Below the pieces are notes generated by a model. It did not search any database and was not told the DNA's origin. It was given only the letters and a program-made list of their open reading frames with translations. Below are positions 13,001 through 19,621 of a stretch of DNA of 37,884 nt, one piece after another. Source of the DNA: Candidatus Berkelbacteria bacterium RIFOXYA2_FULL_43_10 (lineage in GTDB: Bacteria; Patescibacteriota; UBA1384; XYA2-FULL-43-10); NCBI GenBank assembly GCA_001776195.1, contig MEZY01000038.1:51618-89501 (forward strand). Direction: 5' to 3'. The position numbers and the translations under genes are program-made. Every line of letters starts with the position of its first letter. Within the stretch, counting starts at the first letter, position 1.

Positions 13001-13594
13001 ATGAAATTATTTGTTGGTCTTGGAAATCCGGGAAAGAAATACGAGAAGACTCGCCACAACGCGGGCTATCTTCTTTTGGAGCGGATAGCCGGCGAGAGAG
13101 ATTTCAAAAGCGATGAAAAATTTAAAGCACAGATTCTTCTGAAAAAGTCGAAAGGAGAAAGTCTGATCTTCGCTAAACCGGAAACATTTATGAATATGTC
13201 CGGAGAAGCAGTAGTAAAAATAGTAGAGTATTATAAAGTCGATGTTTCAGAAATCTTTGTGCTTTTAGACGATGTGGATATCCCCTTGGGGCAGGTAAGG
13301 ATTCGTTTGTCCGGAAGCAGTGCAGGGCACAAAGGGCTTCAAAACATTATAGAGGCTTTGGGAAGTGAAAGTTTCTGCCGAATAAGAGTTGGGATTGGCG
13401 ATGAGCCGATAAGATCAAACGAACACGATAAATTCGAGAACAAAATAGAGACAAAAAATTACGTTTTGGGGAAATTTACCAAAAGAGAGCTGGGTATTTT
13501 GGATGACGCGATATCTTTGGCGGCGGATAAGATCAAGGCACATATCGGATCGAAAGAGCCGATTCAGGCGACAACGCTTGAGACAAAGCTTTAG
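13001..13594 (+). CDS. pth: Peptidyl-tRNA hydrolase
   Basis: Recycles peptidyl-tRNA released from stalled ribosomes. 197 aa, close to the family length. Seen: FVGLGNPGKKYEKTRHNAGY at the N-terminus (catalytic His in RHNAG, conserved Asn in GNPG), KPETFMNMSG (Asn that binds tRNA) and LDDVDIPLGQVRIR with the catalytic Asp, then GSSAGHKGLQNI. There is no obvious ribosome-binding site because a repeat runs up to the start. The gene is 127 bp ahead of rplA but a separate promoter lies between. Confidence 0.96.
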   Translation: MKLFVGLGNPGKKYEKTRHNAGYLLLERIAGERDFKSDEKFKAQILLKKSKGESLIFAKPETFMNMSGEAVVKIVEYYKVDVSEIFVLLDDVDIPLGQVRIRLSGSSAGHKGLQNIIEALGSESFCRIRVGIGDEPIRSNEHDKFENKIETKNYVLGKFTKRELGILDDAISLAADKIKAHIGSKEPIQATTLETKL

Positions 13595-17842: not shown

Positions 17843-17882
17843 ACTATTCGATATAAGTACGTACGTACTCAAAACAAATAGT
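17843..17882. promoter_or_regulatory. 40-bp palindromic site upstream of the HTH/Cas2-fold gene
   Basis: ACTATT (17843-17848) and AATAGT (17877-17882) flank a central GTACGTACGTAC (17857-17868), all symmetric about the same point. It overlaps the probable -10 (TATACT, 17840-17845) of the gene at 17983. A second 40-bp palindrome with the same centre and arms lies at 18728-18767. The simplest reading is an autoregulatory operator. Confidence 0.65.
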
Positions 17883-17950
17883 AGTGCATCGAGTTTATAT
17901 TGATTGATTTAAACACGAAAACAGAGATGAGAATATAGAGAGGCGCAAGG

Positions 17951-17980
17951 ATGATTAATAAGAGGCGTAAGGAGGTGTAA
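17951..17980 (+). CDS. Possible 9-codon upstream ORF
   Basis: ATG 17951 to TAA 17978-17980 encodes MINKRRKEV and contains the Shine-Dalgarno sequence of the next gene, whose ATG follows two bases after the stop. The segments AGGCGCAAGGATGATTAATA and AGGCGTAAGGAGGTGTAAGA look like a tandem duplication of the ribosome-binding region. Translation is unproven. Confidence 0.3.
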   Translation: MINKRRKEV

Positions 17981-17982
17981 GA

Positions 17983-18612
17983 ATGATTAAAAAATCGAAG
18001 GTCGCTAAAAACTTGTGGAAAAAGACGAAAAGGGATCCGGCGAATATCAGAGGTAAGACGCTGAAAGGAAAGATAAGGAATATTTCACTTTATCTGCTTG
18101 AATCAATAATCTATGCGGTTGATGATTTAAGTAATGTGGGTAGCATTTTAGTTGATAGAAAGTCGGTATATAAAGTAGCGTACCAAGGGTGGCATGAAAA
18201 TAGTAATTTGGCTAAAAGCATTTGTAACTACTTGCAAGATTTACGATACAGAGGATTGATCGAAATAAAGAAGTCGGAATCGAGCGGGAACGATATAATT
18301 ATTATGACAAACAAAGCTAAGTTGAGAGTGGTCGATAAAATATCAGCGAAAATAAAAAGTGATAGAAAATACAGGTTTCTTTCGTTTGACGTCCCCGAGC
18401 TAATGAGGGTGAATAGAAATAGATTCCGCAGGGCGATAAAATCGATCGGTTTTAGGCAGGTTCATAAAAGTTTATGGGTGATTGATAAAAATGTTTCTGA
18501 TCTTGTTGAAATGGTAGCATATGAGTGTAAAGTCGAGAAATATGTGGCTTATATAGTATCGGAAAAATCCGATGTTGATGGAATTGTTGAGAAAATAATT
18601 GCCCGAAGGTAG
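17983..18612 (+). CDS. HTH plus Cas2-fold (PaaX-C-like) protein, probable regulator
   Basis: 209 aa. Start ATG 17983 after a perfect AAGGAGGTGT. Residues 1-30 are strongly basic. Residues about 60-115 look like a winged helix (LAKSICNYLQDLRYRGLIEI plus a beta wing). Residues about 125-209 match the ferredoxin-like fold shared by PaaX C-terminal domains and Cas2: KYRFLSFDVPE with the conserved Asp (residue 136), RFRRAIKSIGFRQVHKSLWV and a final beta strand. No cas1, other cas gene or repeat array is present, so a role in CRISPR adaptation is unlikely. PaaX-type proteins are repressors that bind palindromes, and two matching 40-bp palindromes bracket this gene. A nuclease or toxin role, as with some Cas2/VapD relatives, cannot be excluded. 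Confidence 0.75.
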   Translation: MIKKSKVAKNLWKKTKRDPANIRGKTLKGKIRNISLYLLESIIYAVDDLSNVGSILVDRKSVYKVAYQGWHENSNLAKSICNYLQDLRYRGLIEIKKSESSGNDIIIMTNKAKLRVVDKISAKIKSDRKYRFLSFDVPELMRVNRNRFRRAIKSIGFRQVHKSLWVIDKNVSDLVEMVAYECKVEKYVAYIVSEKSDVDGIVEKIIARR

Positions 18613-18984
18613 TCTCGCATCGATCGAATGATAGTGTCCTTTGTCGTCGGAGAAGCTGTAAGAGATATTATAAAAGAGAAAATAAAAATATAAAATGAAA
18701 TACAAAAAGGATTTTAACGTCAATACTACTATTCGTTTATAATACGTACGTACTATAAACGAATAGTTACAGATTCATATTTGATATGAAATAGAAATAG
18801 GTAAGTGAAGCATTCGGGGGCACTAGTGATTCGGGGGGTAATGTGGCGGAGAATACGAAAGATCGTCCCGGGATATTCGGTCATGCGGTCGCGTAAGGAA
18901 ATATCAGATTTGTGAACAAATATATTCAATTAACAGAATACTAACAAGTATTGATATAAACACAATAATATACGACATCGGGTA
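18613..18984. other. Spacer holding the second palindrome
   Basis: No convincing gene; an open stretch ATG 18628 to TAA 18691-18693 would encode only 21 residues and lacks a ribosome-binding site. Apart from the palindrome at 18728-18767 the DNA is AT-rich with a GC-rich patch around 18814-18897 of unknown nature. Confidence 0.5.
18728..18767. promoter_or_regulatory. 40-bp near-perfect palindrome downstream of the HTH/Cas2-fold gene
   Basis: ACTATTCGTTTATA (18728-18741) and TATAAACGAATAGT (18754-18767) are perfect 14-base inverted arms around TACGTACGTA; 19 of 20 positions pair. Length and centre equal those of the site at 17843-17882. It could be a second operator, a terminator-like element or an element end. 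Confidence 0.68.
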
Positions 18985-19019: not shown

Positions 19020-19310
19020 GTTTCAGAGGATAACTACACGGGTCTTTGACACGGATAGAGCACGGTTAAATGCAGGAGGGAATCTATTCGGAAATTATCC
19101 TCGAAAGGAGTGGAATAACCGATTATTGAAGACCGTAGACCGATAAACGATTGCGGTACACGGTAAACGGTAAACGGAAAATTAAGTGCGGTAGTGTGCT
19201 GTATAGCAATCTTGATCTCCTTCGGGAGGCCAAGCGTAGGTTCCCCCTCCGCCTGCGTCGCTATACAGCACTGTGCCGCACTTTTTATTAAGCGCAAGCT
19301 TAATAAAAGG
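19020..19310 (+). ncRNA. Candidate structured RNA
   Basis: After the promoter come two structured parts. (1) GAGGATAA (19026-19033) can pair with TTATCCTC (19095-19102), enclosing about 60 nt, with AAAGGAG just after. (2) A 23-base arm (19185-19207) pairs with 19260-19282 with only two or three mismatches; inside are a CTCC-TTCG-GGAG hairpin and a CGTAGG/CCTGCG hairpin, making a three-way junction, followed by CTTTTTATT. A further 9-bp stem with a GCAA tetraloop (TTATTAAGC/GCTTAATAA) follows. UUCG and GNRA loops are typical of functional RNA. No known family was recognised. Part of the interval (19130-19180) is ordinary CGGTAAACGG repeat, so nested palindromic repeats are the main alternative. 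Confidence 0.38.
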
Positions 19311-19327
19311 GGGAGTATAAAGAAAAA

Positions 19328-19396
19328 TGTCATTCTGAACGAAGTGAAGAATCTCGCAAAAGTCGGTGGGATCCTTCATTACATTCAGGATGACAC
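19328..19396. repeat. Diverged REP/BIME-like repeat
   Basis: GTCATTCTGAACGAAGTGAA ... CATTCAGGATGAC inverted arms, a relative of the copies at 10441, 34875 and 37644. Confidence 0.55.
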
Positions 19397-19621
19397 AGGA
19401 AAGCAAGTACTTTAACAACAGAATAGTCCTTTGGAGCAATTTGATAGTAATCACATACTCGATGGTGATAATGGCGTCTAGAGTGGCGTGAATAGCGCTC
19501 GCGCCAGAATTCGCTCGAGTGCGACAGATTACTGTCGGCTTGCTCCGAGGGACAACGTAAACATTCCACGAGGGGCCGTCTCGCCGATCAGGCGGACAAA
19601 TCCTCGTAAGGAGGTGCGCTC

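Follow-up and report, generated by a model that had tools for sequence, protein, structure and literature searches.

Cognate palindromes bracket PaaX_M genes in Candidatus Berkelbacteria and relatives: a possible REP/RAYT-like unit built on a Cas2-fold protein

Introduction

The question raised by this locus is what two matched palindromes of 40 bp are doing on either side of a gene whose product combines an N-terminal winged helix-turn-helix (HTH) with a PaaX_M (Cas2-like) domain. The locus lies in a window of 37,884 nucleotides (the whole stretch of DNA analysed here), which comes from a 0.96-Mb genome, in 58 contigs, of a Candidatus Berkelbacteria bacterium. A preliminary description of the same DNA had offered an autoregulatory pair of sites, a small mobile unit or cut sites of a Cas2-like nuclease as possible explanations. 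The analysis reported below argues for the second. With a probability of roughly 0.57, the region would be one copy of a selfish unit of the REP/RAYT-like kind that is based on a PaaX/Cas2-fold protein.

Results

Two palindromes and a gene

The upstream palindrome (positions 17843–17882) has the form ACTATTCG-n7-TACGTACGTA-n7-CAAATAGT and is symmetric at 16 of 20 positions, the mismatches lying 8, 10, 12 and 14 bp out from its centre. Its downstream counterpart (18728–18767; ACTATTCG-n7-TACGTACGTA-n7-CGAATAGT) is symmetric at 19 of 20 positions and begins 116 bp past the stop codon of the intervening gene, which occupies positions 17983–18612 of the plus strand and encodes 209 residues; neither palindrome is assigned to a strand. 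Both are 40 bp long and have the TACGTACGTA centre and ACTATT/AATAGT ends in common. The twin palindromes of the preliminary description, together with their positions, symmetry and spacing, were therefore borne out, but calling them identical was too strong, as 32 of 40 positions (80%) agree between the two. The further suggestion that the upstream site overlaps the promoter found no support in a consensus scan and is plausible by position only. Ten copies of the window were simulated with a first-order Markov model; one contained a single 16/20 palindrome and none contained a palindrome of 17/20 or better, which places a 19/20 palindrome with a matched partner far beyond chance. Four further copies of this palindrome family, all without a gene, are present in the same genome. 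Elsewhere in the window, the minus-strand ORF at 19182–19454 ('VILNVMKDP...EILHFVQNDI') is probably not a gene, and we take it to be what a widespread dispersed bacterial repeat usually looks like when translated.

Matched pairs across the gene family

The window genome carries eight PaaX_M genes, and most of these paralogues have palindromes of their own, with a sequence that differs from one paralogue to the next; the C30 gene, for example, has a perfect 40-bp palindrome with the same sequence on both sides. PaaX_M is present in 39 of the 61 related genomes examined, in up to 11 copies, and a protein profile search of relatives based on an 8-sequence alignment returned 13 loci, eight of them named Candidatus Berkelbacteria. 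In total 93 PaaX_M genes were collected, 85 of which could be tested for a pair. At a joint score threshold of at least 54 (lowest accepted score 56; best score among 85 simulated flank pairs 48), a matched 5'/3' palindrome pair was found at 61 of the 85. The window unit exemplifies a rule that applies to its genome and to CPR relatives, of which the named ones are mostly Berkelbacteria MAGs.

The proteins of this palindrome class are 165–230 residues long. The genes lacking a pair mainly encode proteins of 233–311 residues, which fall to one side of a tree branch (support 83), and otherwise comprise a few short genes, some of them cut off by contig ends. The preliminary description had made its reading depend on the motif accompanying the gene family in related genomes. 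It does so, as each gene's own matched pair, at 61 of 85 homologues, and homologues without palindromes do exist, but they are confined to the separate longer class and the few short genes. Moreover, protein distance correlates with palindrome distance (Mantel test, r = 0.12–0.18; at most 10 of 999 permutations), and the palindrome arms change fast between family members.

The encoded protein

PaaX_M (PF20803; E = 7e-13) was the only Pfam domain found in the window protein. It marks the Cas2-like ferredoxin-fold domain, residues 126–196 (18358–18570, plus strand), which is also seen in the AlphaFold2 model (pLDDT 82), in the structure match and in profile matches. Residues 30–125 (18070–18357, plus strand) make up the winged-HTH region, as judged from the secondary structure of the AlphaFold2 model and from profile matches to AspA, TubR and MarR-type winged-HTH proteins. 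Comparison of the model with the PDB placed E. coli PaaX (8a39) first, with further PaaX-like regulators and Cas2 proteins behind it. Because even the best of these Foldseek matches has a weak E-value (2e-3), the assignment rests on the Pfam match. The Cas2 profile matches are weak as well and cover the first half of the domain only.

The position of the conserved Asp in the metal-dependent nuclease site of Cas2 proteins is occupied by Asp136 (FDVPE; codon 18388–18390, plus strand). In an alignment of the family at this FDIPE motif, the residue is Asp in 60/60 proteins of the palindrome class, 13/13 other short proteins and 7/18 proteins of the long class, whereas E. coli PaaX aligns without an Asp. 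This conservation suggests, rather than proves, that the protein is a catalytically active nuclease, and the palindromes may be cut sites of such an enzyme, as the preliminary description had also proposed. An alignment-based profile search of viral contigs found no relative of the protein, and among three proteins searched against PHROGs a single one gave a weak match, to a family of unknown function.

Palindrome anatomy and mirrored symmetry

Despite their gene-specific sequences, the palindromes have a common layout: a centre that is most often CGATCG (59 of 122), conserved arms 12–18 bp out and a freer gap between them. Over 122 palindromes, symmetry is 84–97% at 1–4 bp from the centre, 68–80% at 5–11 bp and 82–95% at 12–18 bp, and fades beyond 19 bp. 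A shared tag beside the palindromes is absent, both sequence and symmetry being lost outside ±19. Judged from the sequence, such two-block symmetry would be the trace expected of a symmetric protein dimer that reads blocks about one turn apart, and the outer arms are likely to be read by the winged-HTH region. One palindrome-bracketed unit (L201, G003:C27) has the unusual centre CATG (CGTCATGACG), which shows that a CGATCG-type centre is not universal.

Within a unit, the two palindromes frequently have different sequences, although each remains symmetric with itself. Indeed, 54 mirrored double differences were counted, compared with about 12 expected under independent changes. The possibility that this reflects a model that itself seeks palindromes was rejected, since the symmetry persists when the gap is left as N in the search: the gap is mirrored in 6/7 copies in genome G002 and 11/12 copies in G045, and several different gap sequences are represented among these. 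Members of the window family vary little in arms and centre, whereas their gap has decayed. Mirrored symmetry of this kind would be produced either by a fold-back step in the formation of new copies or by template switching that re-symmetrises them, the latter being described as a homogenising process (PMC8604942, PMC8794818).

Solo palindromes

A covariance model of the palindrome (R1) was used to search for solo copies across the 61 genomes. R1 palindromes were present in 16/39 genomes with PaaX_M and in 0/22 without (Fisher p = 2e-4). The 77 solo sites examined are about 36–40 bp long and nearly all intergenic, and copy numbers run from a few to dozens, with several systems within one genome. 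The mean match of solos to the gene-flanking palindromes of their own genome is 28.1/38, compared with 20.5 for equal-size sets from other genomes, and 47/77 reach at least 28/38 with a palindrome of the same genome, compared with 0 on average in the other-genome sets; these values understate the cognate match, because the centres are one base off for the four solos of the window family and for one other (L043). The alternative named in the preliminary description, palindromes dispersed independently of the gene, is thus not what is seen, as the solos mostly match gene palindromes of the same genome.

Setting aside overlapping sites and a few exceptions, the flanks of solos show no homology past the palindrome, and hence the repeated unit is the palindrome itself. 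The solos of G002 had been predicted to match the intact gene of that genome. This prediction failed: the counterpart of the solo family is a decayed PaaX-like ORF that still has the solo palindrome on both sides. A further exception is G048 (a MAG that is 88% complete), in which solos are present and only a long-class gene was found. Two other arrangements are of interest. A near-perfect palindrome of the C30 family lies inside a 280-residue ORF, near its 3' end (L134:726, G000:C50), and in G045 two different palindromes form doublets about 90 bp apart (L120:1579/1669 and L125:1608/1699) that are reminiscent of BIME-like composite repeats.

Position relative to genes

The upstream palindrome usually lies 30–120 bp before the start codon, and the gene beyond the 3' palindrome is on the same strand in 30 cases, on the opposite strand in another 30. 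Solos are found nearer to 3' than to 5' gene ends (47 vs 24; 39 expected), with neither enrichment nor depletion in divergent intergenic regions. When longer ORFs are counted, convergent regions show a modest excess of solos (16/60 vs 6/59, p = 0.03; other background 21/96). An initial count of 24 convergent versus 4 divergent was set aside because it hinged on very short ORFs. As the outcome depends on ORF length, and the ORF-based gene calls make the analysis coarse, the claim made for solos is confined to a position that is not promoter-biased and shows a mild 3' bias.

These positions bear on the reading in which the protein is a PaaX-type autorepressor with two operators, the solos are its regulon and the paralogues are transcription factors specific to a lineage. 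In favour of this reading, the repressor PaaX is the closest solved structure, the spacing of the upstream copy fits, and the symmetry profile is what a dimer operator would show. Nevertheless, this reading is unlikely. A downstream copy is present at 61 genes regardless of the orientation of the neighbour, the mostly intergenic, 3'-biased solos (on ORF-based gene calls) are not operators at the promoters of a regulon, and three solos of G005 are missing at the matching places in the same-genus genome G007. Moreover, operator binding does not require mirrored gaps and leaves them unexplained. What survives of the autoregulatory pair is at best its upstream copy, through which the protein probably represses its own gene.

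Signs of movement

Two units of genome G004 have no counterpart at the corresponding loci of G006, which belongs to the same genus, or of G010, from the same family, and G008 carries different units there; at one of these loci G006 also lacks the neighbouring genes. Six G004 units form a single, intragenomic clade in the tree. Between paralogues of the same genome, identity is 0.58 inside the palindromes and 0.41 and 0.35 outside (control 0.36). In one paralogue pair the outer identity is as high as the inner, because a neighbouring repeat is common to both. The small mobile unit of the preliminary description emerges as the best supported of its options, given the dozens of units with their own matched pairs, the paralogue homology that mostly ends at the palindromes, and the units and solos that come and go between related genomes. 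A nucleotide-clean empty site was not found among the compared relatives, which are about 65–82% identical and have unalignable intergenic DNA. Near-identical full units in different contexts were not found either, so that no very recent jump is seen, and no target-site duplication was established.

The left and right copies of a unit are in direct orientation in 26 cases, inverted in 12 and equal in 23. Two of the G004 units look inverted, and a reading of the palindromes as terminal inverted repeats was rejected because direct pairs outnumber inverted ones overall. The orientations also bear on homing or site-specific recombination, in which the palindrome would be the site, palindrome-gene-palindrome the occupied form, the solo an empty site and the protein a recombinase or nuclease. 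Intact left and right copies, with direct exceeding inverted pairs where the two can be distinguished, are expected for recombination between sites, and the solos share the family sequence. This explanation is nonetheless improbable, more so than autorepression: given the unrelated flanks of the solos, it is the sites that must move; at orthologous loci elsewhere the palindrome is lacking altogether rather than just the gene; and a few units are clearly inverted.

An RNA-hairpin reading was also rejected. An Rfam search for an RNA-hairpin family gave zero matches, a terminator scan gave no terminator-like match, and G-T mismatches on the gene strand (131) are not above A-C mismatches (156), which gives no sign of an RNA-hairpin constraint. 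Least probable of all are structural or physiological elements (cruciforms, bidirectional terminators or chromosome-organising sites) with dedicated binding proteins, as the mostly intergenic position, the mild 3'-end bias and the strong hairpin potential of the downstream window palindrome (z -4.5) are outweighed by the lack of terminator matches and of a G-T excess, by a separate sequence set for each paralogue, by the absence of palindromes from the 22 genomes without PaaX_M and by rapid turnover.

Two intergenic places carry units in both G004 and G008 (L060 vs L113), with differing palindromes; at the first of these the proteins are clearly different too. The two places may be insertion hot spots or have undergone replacement. 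A repeat of about 110 bp (L171:3594-3716, G005), unrelated to the palindromes, occurs in both orientations at many places in the same-genus genome G007.

Discussion

The REP/RAYT systems are the closest parallel in organisation. In these, the gene lies between two cognate palindromes, cognate copies are dispersed between genes, and gene and palindromes co-vary while palindromicity is kept despite changes (PMC2817692). The present system resembles such REPtrons (TnpA-REP) in each respect: cognate palindromes flank 61/85 genes, extragenic copies matching the gene's repeat are dispersed, the two co-vary and symmetry is kept. However, the RAYT protein is an HUH/Y1 transposase (Transposase_17; chemistry in PMC8266576), which is unrelated to a winged HTH joined to a Cas2-like PaaX_M domain. 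A REP is a GTAG-tagged imperfect hairpin, whereas here near-full palindromes of 36–40 bp with a CGATCG-type centre lack a shared tag; the flanking repeats of RAYT genes are inverted, those described here more often direct than inverted, and classical REPs reach far higher copy numbers.

PaaX repressors share the winged-HTH and PaaX_M architecture, the best structural match and a dimer-type palindromic site. E. coli PaaX, however, has 316 residues and a C-terminal PaaX domain, whereas the proteins described here have PaaX_M only and, in the palindrome class, always the Asp that E. coli PaaX lacks; the sites of this class are paired and dispersed, without promoter bias. Cas2 proteins share the ferredoxin-like fold and the YDIP/FDIP Asp, as seen in weak profile matches that cover the domain's first half, but here the domain is fused to an HTH, and no CRISPR array was seen adjoining the gene in the sequence examined. 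Insertion sequences and MITEs likewise form units with end repeats and solo derivatives. The ends of the present units are self-palindromic rather than simple terminal inverted repeats, the protein has no known transposase domain, target-site duplications are not established and the solo consists of the palindrome alone. As no known family accommodates it, the system is regarded as categorically new, though it works like a REP system, and no description of it was found in the open-access literature searched.

In the REP/RAYT-like selfish unit favoured here, the encoded dimer of winged HTH and Cas2-like domain would recognise its own palindrome of about 38 bp, with the arms, 12–18 bp out, probably read by the HTH and the CGATCG/TACGTA-type centre occupied by the Cas2-like dimer. 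A cognate palindrome stands on each side of the gene and recurs as scattered solos; unit and palindromes would spread within genomes, probably by palindrome-specific cleavage via the conserved Asp and subsequent repair or copying. New copies would be symmetric, owing to a fold-back step in their formation or to ordinary template switching; decay would then affect the gap but spare arms and centre, as in the window family, and the upstream copy would probably double as the self-repression site. Against this reading, template switching at quasipalindromes could generate mirrored gaps without any enzyme. A more specific version, which we put forward tentatively and at somewhat less than even odds, makes the Cas2-fold, PaaX-like protein the catalytic mover of its own palindrome in a mobile or REP-like class in CPR bacteria, with a dimeric Cas2-type site acting at the CGATCG-type centre and new, perfectly symmetric palindromes arising via a fold-back intermediate.

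If the favoured reading is correct, the Cas2/PaaX fold gains a third role, the running of a selfish palindrome system, beside CRISPR adaptation and transcription control, and some of the smallest bacterial genomes hold a convergent counterpart of RAYT/REP. It would also have a bearing on how Cas2 joined CRISPR, and CPR genes that match PaaX or Cas2 models could be neither. The family moreover offers many natural protein/DNA-site pairs for the study of how binding specificity diverges.

Finally, a leader that recurs in G004 (L060:3171-3238 and 13130-13215), with short matches in G008, reads GCAGCACTTGACTACTACTAC...TATGTAAGAT and contains a (TAC)n run of variable length. It precedes unrelated-looking ORFs beside palindrome units and resembles a promoter with a length-variable spacer, which is suggestive of possible phase variation.
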